Of a stretch of 32,324 nucleotides of DNA, positions 13 to 9,473 are shown one piece after another. How positions within the stretch are numbered: the stretch's first letter is position 1; each line of letters opens with the position of its first letter. This stretch comes from a virus. Position numbers and translations under genes: made by a program. Location: IMG/VR virus record IMGVR_UViG_3300033146_000555, positions 1 through 32,324 of that record, one strand, 5' to 3'. A model generated the notes under the pieces. The model was not told the origin of the DNA. It made no database searches and saw nothing but the letters and a program-made list of their open reading frames with translations.

Positions 13-1824
13 ATGAAAATAATTAAAAACACTTACGATCAATTATTTGATTTCCAAAAAGAGGGGGTTGACTTTCTTATTTCCCGAAAGAATGCGTTGT
101 TGGCATCAGAAGTAGGAACTGGAAAGACTGCACAAGCGATTCTTGCGTGTCAAAAAGTAAAAGCGAGATCTATTTTGGTTATATGTACCGCAAGTATAAA
201 AGAAAACTGGAAAAGAGAAGCGATAAAGTGGGGGTATGATGAGAGAGAAATTTATATTGTGGGTAAAAAAGCAATCGACTATTCAAAATCAAAAGGGCTC
301 TTTATTATCAATTATGATATCTGTTGGCGGAAACCGTATTTTAATTTTCTTACGAACCGACAATTCGATGTCCTTATCTGCGATGAAAGCCATCGTGCGA
401 AATCTATACTCGCAAAACGATCTAAAGCGATATGGAACAAAGGTGGGTATATAGATAATTCTATATATCATTGGATGGTTACTGCAACCCCTGTGTTAAA
501 TCGCCCAGTTGAGTTATACCCAATGTTAAAAAAACTCTATCCACAAGGATTAGGTGAGTATGACAGTTACATGAAATATACCGCTTATTATTGTGATGGG
601 AAATATGGGCATTGGGGATATGACGCAACAGGGGCGACAAATCTTAATGAGCTTGCAAAAAACCTTCAAGGATTTATGTTAAGACGATCAAAAGACTTGT
701 TACATGGGAGAATGTTACAAAAAATATACCTCCCATTTTCTAAAGAAATTCAAACCTATATATTGGAAGGGGAAGAAAACGAATCAATAAGAAAAAAGAT
801 CGGGATCGCGAAAGTTCCTGCATGTGTTGAGATAATAAAACAATTATTGGAGTCCGAACCAAAACTAGTAGTGTTTGCGTATCATACTCAAGTAATATTG
901 GATTTAGAGACTAAATTAAAAGCGTATAACCCTATCATTTTGTATGGGAAAACAAGCACCAATAAACGATCTTCTCTTATTGATACATTCGTTAAGGATA
1001 AAGAGAAAAGAGTGTTTATAGGGCAAATTCAAGCAGCAGGAGAAGGGGTTGACGGACTCCAACATTCTGCACGAGTGGGAGTATTTGTTGAAATAGTCCA
1101 TGTTCCCGGAACAATTAAACAAGCGATGGGCAGATTATACCGACAAGGTCAAAGGGATTCATGTGTGTTTTGGTTTTTGTTGGTAAAAGGAACGATAGAT
1201 AATCAAGTATTAAACAGTACGATATTTAAGGATAAGAACATCCAAACAATTATGCAAGATAACTCATACGGATTAGATTTTTCTAATTCAAACAATAACA
1301 AAAAGGGGAAAAAAGAAATGGAAACAGAACAATTAAAACGTATTGCGGATAGTTTAGATAAGTTAATCGAGATTATGGAGAATAAATCTATCGTATCTGA
1401 AAGTGAATCAGTAAAAAGAAGAAAAAAGATTCAAACAGGAGTAAAAGAACCAGAAGTAAAACAGGAAGAGGTAAAAGAACCAGAAGTAAAACAGGAAGAA
1501 GTAAAAGAACCAGAAGTAAAACAGGAAGAGGTAAAAGAACCAGAAGTAAAACAGGAAGAAGTAAAAGAACCAGAAGTAAAACAGGAAGAATTTACTCCTG
1601 ATCAATTAACTAAATTATATAGGGCAAAAATGGAGAAAGTTGCGAATATTATTACTGAGTATTCAAAAGACGCAGTACAAGCGAATAAATTTTTCACTGC
1701 GTTACAGATTAAATTTAAAACTGCGTATCCAAATTATGAACATGTATACATGGTAGAATCGAAAGATTATAAAGCGGTATCTGATTTAGTGAATGAGTTT
1801 TTAAAAGAAAATGAAATAATATGA
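13..1824 (+). CDS. SNF2-family helicase/ATPase with repeat-bearing C-terminal extension
   Basis: Superfamily 2 DNA translocase of the SNF2 type, of the kind found in phage replication modules. Visible motifs are Walker A SEVGTGKT (residues 32-39), DESH motif II (124-127), TATP motif III (157-160) and motif VI QAMGRLYRQGQ (370-380), so both RecA-like lobes are complete and the ATPase should be active. After about residue 420 the helicase homology ends in an Asn/Lys-rich stretch. Residues 436-603 form an unrelated extension: a helical start, five copies of a 10-residue acidic/Lys repeat (477-526) and a short C-terminal domain. Met436 is preceded by a ribosome-binding-site-like sequence, so the extension may be a fused or independently started gene. 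Only 12 bases precede the first ATG and the frame is open to the window edge, so the true start could lie upstream. The 3' end overlaps the methyltransferase start (ATGATG). Confidence 0.93.
   Translation: MKIIKNTYDQLFDFQKEGVDFLISRKNALLASEVGTGKTAQAILACQKVKARSILVICTASIKENWKREAIKWGYDEREIYIVGKKAIDYSKSKGLFIINYDICWRKPYFNFLTNRQFDVLICDESHRAKSILAKRSKAIWNKGGYIDNSIYHWMVTATPVLNRPVELYPMLKKLYPQGLGEYDSYMKYTAYYCDGKYGHWGYDATGATNLNELAKNLQGFMLRRSKDLLHGRMLQKIYLPFSKEIQTYILEGEENESIRKKIGIAKVPACVEIIKQLLESEPKLVVFAYHTQVILDLETKLKAYNPIILYGKTSTNKRSSLIDTFVKDKEKRVFIGQIQAAGEGVDGLQHSARVGVFVEIVHVPGTIKQAMGRLYRQGQRDSCVFWFLLVKGTIDNQVLNSTIFKDKNIQTIMQDNSYGLDFSNSNNNKKGKKEMETEQLKRIADSLDKLIEIMENKSIVSESESVKRRKKIQTGVKEPEVKQEEVKEPEVKQEEVKEPEVKQEEVKEPEVKQEEVKEPEVKQEEFTPDQLTKLYRAKMEKVANIITEYSKDAVQANKFFTALQIKFKTAYPNYEHVYMVESKDYKAVSDLVNEFLKENEII
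1318..1824 (+). other. possible internal in-frame start giving the 168-aa C-terminal domain alone
   Basis: Inside the helicase gene an AAAAAGGGG purine tract at 1310-1318 region lies about 9 bases before ATG 1318 (Met436). The product would start METEQLKRIADSLDKL, which resembles the N-termini of many free-standing small phage proteins. The codons just before it read NNNKKGKKE, as if an intergenic spacer were being translated. Either two genes have fused in frame or the C-terminal domain is also made separately. This is inference from sequence only. Confidence 0.4.
1441..1590 (+). repeat. five tandem copies of a 30-bp unit
   Basis: Units start at 1441, 1471, 1501, 1531 and 1561. They are identical except for the last base, which reads g, a, g, a, a. 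The difference is silent (GAG/GAA, Glu). Each unit encodes VKEPEVKQEE. The near-identity indicates recent expansion, probably including a 60-bp duplication step. Confidence 0.97.
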
Positions 1825-2366
1825 TGTTACCAAATAAAAAATATTCTATCATTTATGCAGATCCACCATGGAGTTATAGGGATAAAGCTCTTGCAGGGAA
1901 TAGAGGGGCTTGTTGTAAATACCAAACACAGTCGATAGAGTGGATTGAAAATTTACCAGTAAAAAACATTACAAATCCTGATTGTTGCCTATTCCTTTGG
2001 GTTACCATGCCAAAACTCAATGAGTGTTGGAGTGTAATAGGGAAATGGGGGTTCACCTATAAAACTGTTGCATTTGTTTGGGTTAAAACCAATAAAATAC
2101 AACATACTTTATTTTGGGGGATGGGAAGCTGGACAAGAGCAAACGCAGAAATATGTTTATTCGCTACAAAAGGGAATCCAAAACGAATAAGTGCGGGTGT
2201 TCATTCAGTGGTGATAGATAAGATCCGCAATCATTCACAAAAACCAGAAAAAGTTAAAGATAAAATAATTCAATTACTTGGGGATCTTCCACGGATAGAA
2301 TTGTTTGCAAGACAACAAACAAGCGGATGGGATGCTTGGGGGAATGAAATAACAAAGGAGAAATAA
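1821..2366 (+). CDS. MT-A70-family DNA N6-adenine methyltransferase
   Basis: A 181-residue methyltransferase of the MT-A70/Dam-like class that transfers a methyl group from SAM to N6 of adenine. The catalytic DPPW motif is at residues 14-17 in the context YADPPWSYR. The family C-terminal features follow: SWTRANAEICLFATKG, the HSQKP motif and a terminal GWDAWGNE. The length is normal for stand-alone phage members and all key residues are present. The start overlaps the helicase stop, with a weak ribosome binding site, so translation is probably coupled; ATG 1824 is an alternative. The likely role is to protect phage DNA from host restriction, but the target sequence cannot be read from the protein. 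Its last codons contain the ribosome binding site of the next gene. Confidence 0.95.
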   Translation: MMLPNKKYSIIYADPPWSYRDKALAGNRGACCKYQTQSIEWIENLPVKNITNPDCCLFLWVTMPKLNECWSVIGKWGFTYKTVAFVWVKTNKIQHTLFWGMGSWTRANAEICLFATKGNPKRISAGVHSVVIDKIRNHSQKPEKVKDKIIQLLGDLPRIELFARQQTSGWDAWGNEITKEK

Positions 2367-2373
2367 AAATGAT
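2351..2373 (+). repeat. repeated translation leader, copy 1 of 3
   Basis: A 23-bp sequence with AAAGGAG and an A-rich spacer running through the start codon. It recurs exactly at 2600-2622 and 2958-2980. This copy overlaps the 3' end of the methyltransferase gene. Confidence 0.9.
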
Positions 2374-2575
2374 ACAACTCCAATTAAACGAAAAGGAGAA
2401 TGTTCAAAAAACAGAAATATGGTTAAATCCTAATCATGTAATAGGGGCAAAACTCACAAAAAATTTATTGATCATTTCAACCACTGAATATTCAAAAAGT
2501 TTTGCACTTAAATATTCAATACCAGAGGATATAACCTATAAAAATGCACAACGATTTATATTATATTCAGTGTAG
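2369..2575 (+). CDS. small phage protein, paralogue A (68 aa)
   Basis: Unrecognised small protein, predicted mostly beta from its alternating hydrophobic pattern. It is near-identical to the 74-aa protein at 2976-3200: 8 differences across the first 64 residues, mostly conservative (I/V, L/V, D/E). The two copies diverge abruptly at residue 65. Here an indel of about 5 bp shifts the frame and ends the protein with LYSV, although the DNA beyond the stop still matches the coding tail of the other copy. It follows the methyltransferase by 2 bases, and GGAG lies 8 bases before ATG. Function unknown. Confidence 0.85.
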   Translation: MIQLQLNEKENVQKTEIWLNPNHVIGAKLTKNLLIISTTEYSKSFALKYSIPEDITYKNAQRFILYSV

Positions 2576-2590
2576 GAAGATCAAAAGGGG
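2571..2590 (+). pseudogene. untranslated tail of paralogue A
   Basis: This 20-bp stretch is identical to 3173-3192, where it encodes the C-terminal GRSKG of paralogue B. In copy A it lies in or past the stop codon because of the upstream indel, so it is a decaying coding remnant. Confidence 0.75.
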
Positions 2591-2599
2591 AGATGAAAT

Positions 2600-2622
2600 A
2601 ACAAAGGAGAAATAAAAATGAT
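2600..2622 (+). repeat. repeated translation leader, copy 2 of 3
   Basis: Exact copy of the 23-bp leader, placed before the RyR gene. The match with copy 1 extends upstream to ATGAAAT, which in copy 1 is methyltransferase coding sequence. Copy 2 therefore looks like a duplicated gene end. Confidence 0.9.
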
Positions 2623-2959
2623 AAATAAAATTGCAAAAGTATGCCATGAGGTAAACAAATCTTATTGTGAAGCAATAGGAGATTTTTCACAGCAATCATG
2701 GGAAGACGCTCCACAATGGCAAAAGGAGTCAGCGATTAATGGTGTTAAATTCCATCTTGAAAACAATGTGTTACCAAAAGATTCACATGATAATTGGTTA
2801 AAAGTGAAAAAAGCGGAGGGTTGGAAATATGGGGAAGTAAAAGATGTAGAAAAGAAAGAACATCCTTGTTTTCTCCCTTATGATAAGCTACCACAAGAAC
2901 AAAAAGTAAAAGATTATCTCTTTAAATCAATAGTCGATAATGTGTCGCAAATAGTTTAA
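2618..2959 (+). CDS. RyR-domain protein
   Basis: A 113-residue single-domain protein recognised as a RyR (ryanodine-receptor repeat, Pfam RyR) protein. Supporting landmarks are the N-terminal helix with CHEVNKSYCEAIGD, the WEDAPQWQKESAINGVKFH segment, a central SHDNWLKVKKAEGWKYGEVKD and the hallmark HPCFLPYDKLPQEQKVKDYLF. Bacterial and phage RyR proteins are small and made of the domain alone, as here. Their biochemical role is not established; literature on nucleotide-based conflict systems has proposed ligand (nucleotide or ADP-ribose-like) binding. It sits between two near-identical small genes with copied leaders, which suggests insertion during a duplication. A strong GGAG site lies 8 bases before ATG. 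Confidence 0.9.
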   Translation: MINKIAKVCHEVNKSYCEAIGDFSQQSWEDAPQWQKESAINGVKFHLENNVLPKDSHDNWLKVKKAEGWKYGEVKDVEKKEHPCFLPYDKLPQEQKVKDYLFKSIVDNVSQIV

Positions 2960-2980
2960 CAAAGGAGAAATAAAAATGAT
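2958..2980 (+). repeat. repeated translation leader, copy 3 of 3
   Basis: Exact copy of the 23-bp leader before the second small paralogue. The identity continues into that gene, as in copy 1. Confidence 0.9.
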
Positions 2981-3200
2981 ACAACTTCAATTAAACGAAA
3001 ATGAGACTGTTCAAAAAACAGATATATGGTTAAATCCTAATCATGTAGTAGGGGTAAAACTCACAAAAAATGTATTGGTTATTTCAACCACTGAATATTC
3101 AAAAAGTTTTGCACTTAAATATTCAATACCGGAATGTATAACCTATAAAAATGCACAACGATTTATATTCGATGTAGGAAGATCAAAAGGGGGGAATTAA
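2976..3200 (+). CDS. small phage protein, paralogue B (74 aa)
   Basis: Paralogue of the 68-aa protein at 2369-2575 and probably the intact form, ending DVGRSKGGN. Residues 1-64 are 56/64 identical to paralogue A. The hydrophobic pattern suggests a small beta fold with a motif IWLNPNHVVGVKL, loosely reminiscent of small FlbD-like proteins; that resemblance is not strong enough to assign. The stop overlaps the next start by one base (TAATG), so it is translationally coupled to the nuclease gene. Function unknown. Confidence 0.85.
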   Translation: MIQLQLNENETVQKTDIWLNPNHVVGVKLTKNVLVISTTEYSKSFALKYSIPECITYKNAQRFIFDVGRSKGGN

Positions 3201-4384
3201 TGACACATTCAAATATAAGCCCATCATCCGCAGAACGATTTTTTAACTGTCCTGCATGCGTGAAGGAACAAGCGAAAGTAAAATTTAAAGAACCTTCTAA
3301 TCAATACGCATTAGAAGGAACAGCACTTCATGAACTCGCAGCAAAATGTCTTACCTTGGATAAAAACCCAAAAGAATTTATGGGTACAACAATTGAAGTA
3401 AAGAATAATTTTGATGAGATAATTGAATTTGAGGTAACAGAAGAATTTGTTAACGCAATCACTCTTTACCAAAATGTTATATATGATATATTGGATTCAA
3501 AAGGTGCGAGTAAAAAAGCATTACGAATAGAATCAAAAGTAACACTCCCAGAAATTGACAAAAAAGCAAAAGGAACGGTAGACTGTTCATTCATTGCAGG
3601 AGATACACTTTATGTAATTGATTTCAAAGGGGGGGCGGGAATAACGGTCAATCCAGAAGAAAACAAACAATGTATGTATTATGCTCTGCGCCCTTATTTG
3701 GATGCAAAGATGCTTATCCAAAAAATAGTTATTGGGATTATTCAACCAAGAACAACACAAGGTGATACCATTAAAATATGGGAATGTAGTCCGCAACGAT
3801 TAGATGAATTTGCAAAAGAATTAAAAACCGCAATTGCAAAAACAAGAGTAAAACAACCAAAATATCAAACAGGTCCTTGGTGTAAATACTGTAAAGCGTT
3901 AACCGTTTGTAAACCAATGCAAAATACTATTATGGAACCTGTGAAAGAAATGATCCCAGATATCACAGATTTTTTCCCAAAATTAACCGACATCACTGCC
4001 GATCAAATCGGGAAAGCACTTCCAGTCCTTGAAATATTAAAAGGATATATGGAAGCATTATATAAACACGCATTCTCATTGGCAACAATGGGGGAAACCA
4101 TTCCTAATTACTGTATGGTAAAAGGGAAAAAACAAAGGAGGTATACTGATGAAATAGCCGTGCAGGAAGCGTTTGCAAGTCTTGGGGATAAGATTTTCAC
4201 CACGCCGAAACTAAAATCTCCCGCTCAACTGGAAAAACTAGTCGGGAAAAATCAATTAGCCGATTATGTATATGTACCAGAAGGAGATTTAAAACTTATC
4301 CCAACAAAAGATACTAAAGATCAAATCAAAATGAGTCTTGATGATATCTTTAGTGAATTACCAGAAGAAAAATTAACGAATTAA
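3200..4384 (+). CDS. DUF2800 protein, Cas4-like PD-(D/E)XK nuclease
   Basis: A 394-residue member of the DUF2800 family, related to the RecB/Cas4 nucleases. The family N-terminus SPSSAERFFNCPAC carries Cys17 and Cys20, followed by EGTALHELA (residues 39-47). The nuclease core shows Asp128 in KGTVDCS and D141-F-K143 in the DFKGG motif. A C-terminal Cys group, C228, C231 and C237, would complete an iron-sulfur site with an N-terminal Cys. It probably processes DNA ends for recombination or replication. The DUF2800-DUF2815-PolA order that follows is a standard phage replication block. Substrate polarity cannot be told from sequence. Confidence 0.93.
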   Translation: MTHSNISPSSAERFFNCPACVKEQAKVKFKEPSNQYALEGTALHELAAKCLTLDKNPKEFMGTTIEVKNNFDEIIEFEVTEEFVNAITLYQNVIYDILDSKGASKKALRIESKVTLPEIDKKAKGTVDCSFIAGDTLYVIDFKGGAGITVNPEENKQCMYYALRPYLDAKMLIQKIVIGIIQPRTTQGDTIKIWECSPQRLDEFAKELKTAIAKTRVKQPKYQTGPWCKYCKALTVCKPMQNTIMEPVKEMIPDITDFFPKLTDITADQIGKALPVLEILKGYMEALYKHAFSLATMGETIPNYCMVKGKKQRRYTDEIAVQEAFASLGDKIFTTPKLKSPAQLEKLVGKNQLADYVYVPEGDLKLIPTKDTKDQIKMSLDDIFSELPEEKLTN

Positions 4385-7785: not shown

Positions 7786-8101
7786 CAACACGTTTAACAC
7801 AATTGTTGCGAAAAGGGTTGAAAAAATTCATAATGTCTTAGGAACAAAAGCGATTGAGTATTCCCATGATAACGATAGACTTTATAATTTTAAAGTCGGT
7901 GCGAGAATGAATTATTCTAGCCCACAAAAAGTACTCTGGGGATTCGCGCTTAAACATCTTATATGTGTTGATGATATTGTAAATGGGAGACTTACTAACA
8001 ATGAACAATTAGTATCTGAAAAAGTCGGGGATCTTATAAATTATCTTATATTACTTGAAGCAGTACTTTATGAAGAAAGGGAAGAAAATGTTAGAACTTA
8101 G
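7778..8101 (+). CDS. small helical protein, possibly nucleotide-modification/MazG-like (107 aa)
   Basis: All-helical by pattern. The order of segments (an N-terminal helix, AIEYSHDNDRLYNFK, a central ALKHLICVDD and C-terminal EKVGDLINYLILLEAVL) resembles DUF1599-like/nucleotide-modification-associated and MazG-type all-alpha NTP pyrophosphohydrolase folds seen in phages. A full set of metal-binding acidic residues is not obvious, so enzymatic activity is uncertain. AAAGGAG precedes the ATG, and the gene overlaps both neighbours (8 and 14 bases). Placement in the DNA-metabolism operon fits a role in nucleotide pools, but this is inference. Confidence 0.7.
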   Translation: MDNNTFNTIVAKRVEKIHNVLGTKAIEYSHDNDRLYNFKVGARMNYSSPQKVLWGFALKHLICVDDIVNGRLTNNEQLVSEKVGDLINYLILLEAVLYEEREENVRT

Positions 8102-9473
8102 TATTGCGATAATCGCCAAGAATGAAAGTGAAATGATCGCTGGTTGTTTAGAATCAGTAAAAGACGCCGATGAAATTGTGGTGGTGGATACTGGAAGTGA
8201 AGATAACACTGTTGACATCGCAAAAAGTTATACTGATAAAGTATTCACCGATTATAAATGGGAAGATAATTTTGCCAATGCAAGAAATCATGCGATAAAA
8301 AAATGTAAAGGACACTGGATATTATCCATTGATGCAGATGATAGATTAGAAAAAGATGGGATAAAAAAGATTAGAGAAACAATAAGAAAATATCCAAGTC
8401 AAGACTGTTTCAACGTGTTGTTTAAAGCAAAACAATCGCCAAATACAACCCATGTTCTCCCTTATCTTTACCAAAACAACCCCGATACAATATTCTTTAG
8501 TGGTGCCGCACATAATTATCTGTCAGTTCCCGCCCATAAACACGCAGGAGTATCAATAATCTATGGACATAGCCCTGCTCATAAGAAAGACCCAGATAGA
8601 ACTCTTAGGATATTGGAAAAAGAAGTTAAGAAAAATCCGGATAAACCACGAGAATTATTTTATTTGGCAAGAGAATATCAGTATAGAAAACGCTGGCAAG
8701 ATGCAATTGATATGATTCAAAGATATTTAAAAGTATCTTATTGGGATCCTGAAATCGCAGACGCATATCTTAGATTATCAAAATGCTATTGTGCATTGCA
8801 CCAAATGCAAAACGCAAAACGAGCGTGTATGAATGCGATTAGTATTAATCCTAATTTCAAAGAAGCAATTCTCTATATGGCGTCAATATGTGAGTATAAA
8901 AACAGTGCGAATTGGATATTTATGGCAGAAGTCGCACGAAACACTAATGTTCTTTTTGTAAGAAACAAAACAGAAAAACCACTCTCTTATTTTGAAAAAG
9001 AAAAAAAGAAAGAACCTGATAAAGCGTATCTCAAGATTGAAGAAGCAATCTCAAAAGCAATTGGGAATAGACCGATGTTAGATATTGGATTTGGATTAAA
9101 CAATCTCAAACAATATATCCCACAATACCGCACATTTGAAAATATAAAGTCGCCGTATGACCAAGCGAAAATCTATTCAAAAATCCTTCAAGATTATAAC
9201 GTGTATGTATTTTTAAATGTCTTACAATATTTAGAACGAGATAAATATATGTTGGAATGTGTCCCAAGAAAAAAACAAGTGCTAATCGCAGTGCCTTCCT
9301 ATGATAGTTCATCTCATGTAAGACGGTATACAGAAGATATGATGAGATTTAGATATAAGGATATCATTCAAATATATGAAATCGTTCCATTCTTTTGGGC
9401 TAGTATTATATGGGATGTAGATACCCGGCCAACAAAAGATTATATTCTTCTTTGTGCAGGAGTTCGAATATAA
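8088..9473 (+). CDS. family 2 glycosyltransferase with TPR region and C-terminal methyltransferase-like domain
   Basis: A 461-residue protein with three parts. Residues 1-160 are a GT-A glycosyltransferase family 2 domain with IAIIAKNES, VVVDTGSEDNT and the metal-binding DAD at 82-84. Residues about 180-285 form helical TPR-like repeats. Residues about 325-461 look like a Rossmann methyltransferase: motif I MLDIGFG (330-336) and VFLNVLQYLERDKYMLECVP, a Methyltransf_23-type pattern, though the glycine-rich loop is imperfect. The start at 8088 has GGGAAG upstream; a start at 8055 would lengthen the overlap. It is the last gene of the + cluster and may modify phage DNA, a virion protein or host surface sugar; the acceptor is unknown. 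Confidence 0.9.
   Translation: MLELSIAIIAKNESEMIAGCLESVKDADEIVVVDTGSEDNTVDIAKSYTDKVFTDYKWEDNFANARNHAIKKCKGHWILSIDADDRLEKDGIKKIRETIRKYPSQDCFNVLFKAKQSPNTTHVLPYLYQNNPDTIFFSGAAHNYLSVPAHKHAGVSIIYGHSPAHKKDPDRTLRILEKEVKKNPDKPRELFYLAREYQYRKRWQDAIDMIQRYLKVSYWDPEIADAYLRLSKCYCALHQMQNAKRACMNAISINPNFKEAILYMASICEYKNSANWIFMAEVARNTNVLFVRNKTEKPLSYFEKEKKKEPDKAYLKIEEAISKAIGNRPMLDIGFGLNNLKQYIPQYRTFENIKSPYDQAKIYSKILQDYNVYVFLNVLQYLERDKYMLECVPRKKQVLIAVPSYDSSSHVRRYTEDMMRFRYKDIIQIYEIVPFFWASIIWDVDTRPTKDYILLCAGVRI

Follow-up and report, generated by a model that had tools for sequence, protein, structure and literature searches.

The locus described here raises the question of whether a RyR gene, standing between two small paralogues that share its leader, belongs to an undescribed counter-defence system, as a sequence-only reading had proposed. 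The window, by which we mean the whole stretch of DNA that was analysed, is an IMG/VR virus record of 32,324 bases, and its source is best explained as an uncultured, podovirus-like phage; its portal protein shares 24-29% identity with the head-tail connectors of podovirus-type phages. The first 8 kb look like one early-type block that runs from an SNF2-like helicase through MID, MT-A70, small gene A, RyR and small gene B to a DUF2800 exonuclease, an ssDNA-binding protein, a family A DNA polymerase and a RuvC-like resolvase. Behind the replication genes, and still ahead of the strand switch, comes a long ORF of the same orientation (8055-9473), unusual cargo whose start resembles a family 2 glycosyltransferase. 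The features that matter to the argument are these:

1318-1824, + strand: MID, a core gene in frame behind the helicase and the left border of the putative accessory block; it matches L220 (50%) and L209 (31%) directly before DUF2800.
1821-2366, + strand: MT-A70 family DNA adenine methyltransferase (PF05063, E 1.2e-28; PADLOC MTase_II, E 1.1e-67), first gene of the probable insertion.
2338-2345, + strand: GGGGGAAT, left end of the proposed duplicated unit, inside MT-A70; one of two + strand copies in the window.
2350-2374, + strand: leader 1, TAACAAAGGAGAAATAAAAATGATA, ribosome-binding, overlapping the MT-A70 stop; an exact triple repeat, 0 expected.
2369-2575, + strand: small gene copy A, 68 aa, with a 5-bp insertion that puts its C-terminus out of frame (ORF, copy alignment).
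2599-2623, + strand: leader 2, before RyR; with 2587-2598 it forms a 35/37 copy of the MT-A70 end (repeat comparison).
2618-2959, + strand: RyR-domain protein of the RyDEP family, 113 aa, predicted to bind 2'/3'cADPR and to be anti-Thoeris, with residues H57/W60/H82/D99 (PF02026, alignment, model).
2957-2981, + strand: leader 3, before small gene copy B, overlapping the RyR stop codon; exact triple repeat.
2976-3200, + strand: small gene copy B, 74 aa, an orphan; four strands and a helix predicted at low confidence (pLDDT 51).
3190-3197, + strand: GGGGGAAT, right end of the proposed duplicated unit, at the end of copy B.
3200-4384, + strand: DUF2800 exonuclease-like core gene (PF10926, E 2e-63), right border of the putative accessory block; HEL-MID-DUF2800-SSB-POLA synteny in relatives.

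Comparison with 14 contigs that carry related DNA polymerases, some of them fragments, showed that the order of helicase, DUF2800 and polymerase is kept in nine. In the closest relatives, L220 (polymerase 58%) and L209 (55%), MID lies directly before DUF2800 with nothing between, and MT-A70, the small gene and RyR are all absent; in fact we found no RyR domain in any of the 14 records, fragments included. Considering that MID adjoins DUF2800 directly in these two relatives, the four genes at 1821-3199 were most likely inserted at this junction, and they are best explained as an accessory counter-defence cassette made up of an MT-A70, two copies of an orphan small gene and one RyR. The MID gene of the window contains five near-identical 30-nt repeats (VKEPEVKQEE) in the frame it shares with the helicase, and in relatives it stands before DUF2800, varies in length and has charged repeats. 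At 4097-5191 of L209 a different, unrelated DNA methylase lies in frame with MID, one gene away from the position of the window's MT-A70, and this spot therefore looks like a methylase exchange site.

The RyR protein itself is a clear member of its domain family (PF02026, E 8.7e-12, 45.6 bits vs a cut-off of 27.4), and the family is widespread: it matches 286 phage records at E 1e-3 and occurs in at least 93 viral contigs, the phages having Gammaproteobacteria, Actinobacteria and others as hosts and the gene contexts being unrelated. Phage RyR proteins were named RyDEP in a 2026 preprint by Lopez Rivera et al. from the Kranzusch/Sorek/Hatfull groups, where they are reported to be anti-Thoeris proteins that inactivate the messengers 2'cADPR and 3'cADPR, gp78 of phage DyoEdafos by cleavage and homologues from Ruegeria and Pectobacterium phages by tight binding; their features include a homodimer formed via helices 1 and 4, and phage growth on Thoeris cells is restored (PMC13232231). 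The ligand and catalytic residues of the DyoEdafos protein are H75, W78, H100 and D117, with H75/D117 as the catalytic pair (PMC13232231). We found that gp78 (MN234187) matches PDB entry 35tm along its whole length (E 3e-95), and that these four residues align with H57, W60, H82 and D99 of the window RyR; H57 and H82 do not vary among 50 phage relatives, and W60 and D99 are kept in at least 90% of them. The model of the window protein (pLDDT 95.7, built from 50 sequences) places helices at 2-19, 33-48, 53-66 and 93-109, which is the four-helix Repeat12 fold, and superposes over all 113 residues on nucleotide-bound human RyR3 Repeat12 (Z 9.8, rmsd 2.9), and with the same Z of 9.8 on a Bacteroides RyR/human chimera. 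The window RyR thus has the domain, the four helices, the H/W/H/D set and the single-domain size of about 110 aa of the published RyDEP proteins, and lies close to their Pectobacterium Cbunavirus and Ruegeria phage members. The Pectobacterium phage records with a RyR match, ten in all, are of one kind, and the Pectobacterium homologue tested in the preprint is therefore probably among them. The ligand-pocket Trp is Arg in Pectobacterium phage phiA41 (L087) and Trp in its sisters CB1 and Nepra (L224, L225), a natural variant.

These observations suggest that the window RyR would bind 2'cADPR and 3'cADPR, the messengers of the Thoeris TIR protein, in its H57/W60/H82/D99 pocket, a function that we infer from family membership and conserved residues. 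It most likely sequesters the messengers as a sponge rather than cutting them, and Thoeris effectors would thereby be kept from activation during infection. A rival reading is that the ligand preference of this RyR has drifted, so that it would recognise a different molecule derived from NAD or nucleotides and serve phage metabolism or a different signalling defence. The titles of animal RyR Repeat12 structures name ATP, ADP and AMP-PCP as ligands, and of the eight phage homologues tested, two failed to bind either cADPR signal (PMC13232231), so that RyDEP family membership is no guarantee of binding. However, every residue in contact with the terminal ribose and the phosphates is conserved here, and the family's neighbours are immune-signal sponges, which makes such a drift unlikely. 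That the protein might instead be a glycosidase-type RyDEP, hydrolysing 2'/3'cADPR to ADP-ribose, finds some encouragement in the retention of the catalytic H75/D117 as H57/D99, together with W60 and H82. We nevertheless think it quite unlikely, since the sole known enzymatic member is distant, eight homologues sampled across the family tree all failed to cleave the messenger (PMC13232231), and gp78 Q54, a position mutated in the glycosidase work, is Ser in the window RyR and likewise in the Pectobacterium Cbunavirus and Ruegeria proteins. The window protein shares 58% identity with its homologue in phiA41 and 45% with that of Ruegeria phage V21, vs 23% with gp78, and in our tree it groups with the sponge-type homologues, gp78 standing on a far longer branch. 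Moreover, unlike the DyoEdafos gene, it is not beside NARP1 NAD-synthesis genes, its neighbours being MT-A70, DUF2800 and the orphan paralogues that flank it. We therefore retain the sponge as the most likely mode of action, judged by relatedness, the Q54 position and the tree.

Additional support comes from the genes that surround RyR elsewhere. Of 125 ORFs adjacent to RyR genes, 11 were PF13876, the family of the anti-CBASS sponge Acb4 (PMC11722364), five were Acb2/Tad1 hairpin proteins and two were Tad2-like, vs one Acb2/Tad1 match in a control of 125 ORFs taken from these loci at a distance of more than 2.5 kb, counted among the 25 of 37 control families listed, such that a single Acb4 or Tad2 match could be hidden. 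Across 50 viral RyR records, 20 of the 27 Acb4, Tad1/Acb2 and Tad2 matches share the strand of RyR and are no more than 700 nt from it, where chance gives a mean of 1.0 and none of 20,000 permutations reached 20; this statistic counts related viral records as separate, and the effective sample is smaller than 50 (loci among L002-L080). A version of the survey that picked neighbours on both strands was dropped, as it returned spurious reverse ORFs in GC-rich contigs. The best cultured match, Klebsiella phage P19-618, has Acb4 directly upstream of RyR, and in four proteins that we checked Acb4 and RyR are fused in a single chain (L010 4671-5336, L062 4656-5348, L075 4632-5330, and UKH48585 of Vibrio phage vB_ValP_FGH, or FGH, at L082:5655-6323); in the L062 record a Tad2-like gene follows directly behind the fusion. 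Joining an anti-CBASS to an anti-Thoeris domain, these fusions look like dual-signal inhibitors. The association of RyR with sponge genes is a repeated one: it involves three sponge families, is seen in either gene order, and includes fusions that fall on different branches of the tree. Although the records are not all independent, this repetition supports an anti-signalling function for the RyR family and hence for the window RyR. Acb4 (PF13876), Tad1/Acb2 (PF24729) and Tad2 (PF11195) resemble RyR in being small phage proteins that sequester immune messengers and are often its neighbours or fusion partners; their folds, however, are unrelated to it, and in the window no known sponge gene adjoins RyR, whose neighbours are the orphan small genes. 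The text of the RyDEP preprint does not mention Acb4, Tad1 or Tad2 (PMC13232231), and our full-text literature search found no paper naming both RyR and Acb4-type sponges.

The counter-defence role guessed from the sequence is thus supported for RyR by family, ligand residues, fold and the sponge neighbours elsewhere, with a named mechanism already in print; the function being described, the cassette is not a new system. The idea that the trio forms an undescribed system found no support: RyR is a known and widespread family, no further record with the trio came to light, both genes are missing from the closest phage relatives, and selection for keeping the copies as a pair is not detectable. 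Around 80 RyR loci no small-gene relative, MT-A70 or DUF2800 was found nearby, and RyR turned up in none of the 14 related records. Occurrence of the two genes at unrelated places in relatives had been named as evidence against such a system, and this is the situation of RyR, while the small gene is without detectable relatives. For the latter, searches of viral_contigs, genome_contigs, phages and plasmids (the last two by tblastn), of Pfam, PHROGs, NCBIfam, PADLOC and PDB sequences, and of 224 loci with a local profile, gave nothing beyond chance; the two-sequence scans used N-terminal patterns only, and distant relatives can therefore be missed. An apparent kinship with DUF5438 (PF17506) was rejected: copy A scored 19.4 bits against a cut-off of 27, copy B gave nothing, and on rechecking none exceeded the cut-off. 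The model of the small protein, with four strands and a helix, is not reliable at pLDDT 51 and was left out of fold searches.

Could the three genes still work together, as a two-part sponge or with the small protein as partner or regulator, its dose raised by duplication? The genes are adjacent and have identical translation starts, both copies are open, and the changes between them are mostly conservative (I/V, L/V, E/D, A/V), which hints at some constraint. Yet the 13 substitutions include eight amino-acid changes, vs a neutral mean of 9.0 (P 0.37), and the dN/dS of 0.56, calculated from few sites, is indistinguishable from neutral, so that no selection for keeping the copies as a pair is detectable. 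The C-terminus of copy A is altered, the pair was seen in no other genome, the 80 RyR loci yielded no small-gene, MT-A70 or DUF2800 match, and RyR proteins work alone (PMC13232231). A functional module is in our estimation improbable. From what the sequences compared here suggest, the trio is not a conserved system and the cassette has so far been seen only in this phage; the small gene appears to be a separate, undescribed accessory gene, with no evidence of cooperation with RyR. It may have a counter-defence role, to judge from its position beside a methyltransferase and a RyDEP gene.

The repeats tell how this layout may have arisen. The description of RyR as lying between two small paralogues with 56 of their first 64 residues identical was accurate in both position and identity; with their leaders, the copies (2350-2562 and 2957-3169) align ungapped over 213 nt at 94% DNA identity, with 13 differences. 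Small gene A, RyR and small gene B all start with an identical ribosome-binding leader, TAACAAAGGAGAAATAAAAATGATA, exact at 2350, 2599 and 2957 (0 expected from shuffles) and without a fourth copy in the window at 3 mismatches allowed; its exactness had been recognised, and its length is 25 nt rather than 23 bp. Leader 1 is also coding, specifying the final MT-A70 residues and the stop. Because 35 of 37 nt at the MT-A70 end (2338-2374) recur at 2587-2623, leader 2 is a copy of the junction between MT-A70 and leader 1. Across the window, + strand copies of the 8-mer GGGGGAAT are found at 2338 and 3190 only, and the junction predicted from recombination between its copies, AAGATCAAAAGGGGGGAATGAAATAACAAAGG, is a 1-nt deletion and one substitution away from that observed, AAGATCAAAAGGGGAGATGAAATAACAAAGG. 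We infer from these junction sequences that a unit of MT-A70 end, leader and small gene would have been duplicated in tandem by recombination between the two 8-mers, and that RyR then came in behind the second leader, where it now lies between perfect 25-bp repeats (leaders 2 and 3). The tandem duplication with RyR inserted midway, as first suggested, thus fits the junctions and is refined here by the GGGGGAAT ends. Copy A would later have taken the 5-bp insertion that follows the 213-nt alignment and sets its last codons out of frame with copy B, giving the C-terminus RFILYSV in place of RFIFDVGRSKGGN. That the repeats are an assembly artefact is hardly credible even for a single metagenomic record of which no second copy was found, as a doubled read stretch would not yield 13 substitutions and a 5-bp indel, and the three ORFs are all open with good ribosome-binding sites.

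At the copies' divergence, 25 unchanged nucleotides have a P of about 0.17, and the perfect leaders, taken alone, are therefore no evidence of selection. A scan of the region for sigma-70-like promoters gave 28 sites vs 31.4 in shuffles, with none within the leaders, which consequently look like translational rather than transcriptional modules; being identical, they should give the three proteins similar translation starts. As a family marker the leader was discarded, an 18-nt piece having at least 119 scattered viral-contig matches and its core being an ordinary ribosome-binding site. The start-associated sequences of cluster K mycobacteriophages are reportedly short repeats located where neighbouring but unrelated genes have their ribosome-binding site and start codon; compared with that description, the leader of the window differs in having only three copies, tied to one duplication and one insertion, and in not being genome-wide.

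Taken together, we consider it probable, from sequence comparison and modelling, that this is an accessory cassette shaped by duplication and RyR insertion, in which RyR is a sponge-type RyDEP and the small gene is a separate entity. A clear RyDEP-family anti-Thoeris candidate is now placed in an uncultured phage group whose relatives are without one, and the locus shows how an operon of replication genes can take up a RyR-type gene next to a ribosome-binding leader that is repeated. We can only speculate that the small gene encodes an undescribed protein that counters the nucleotide-signal defence targeted by RyR or one parallel to it, perhaps as another small beta-rich sponge, with the block as a compact anti-signalling island; this is rather unlikely, and if true, the known Acb4, Tad1 or Tad2 partner of RyR would be replaced here by a new protein. 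More interesting than the window RyR itself, and of more general use, is a by-product, namely the linkage of RyR to sponge genes together with the Acb4-RyR fusions: because phage RyR genes adjoin or are fused with Acb4, Tad1/Acb2 and Tad2, the genes beside RyR are good hunting places for new inhibitors of nucleotide signalling.
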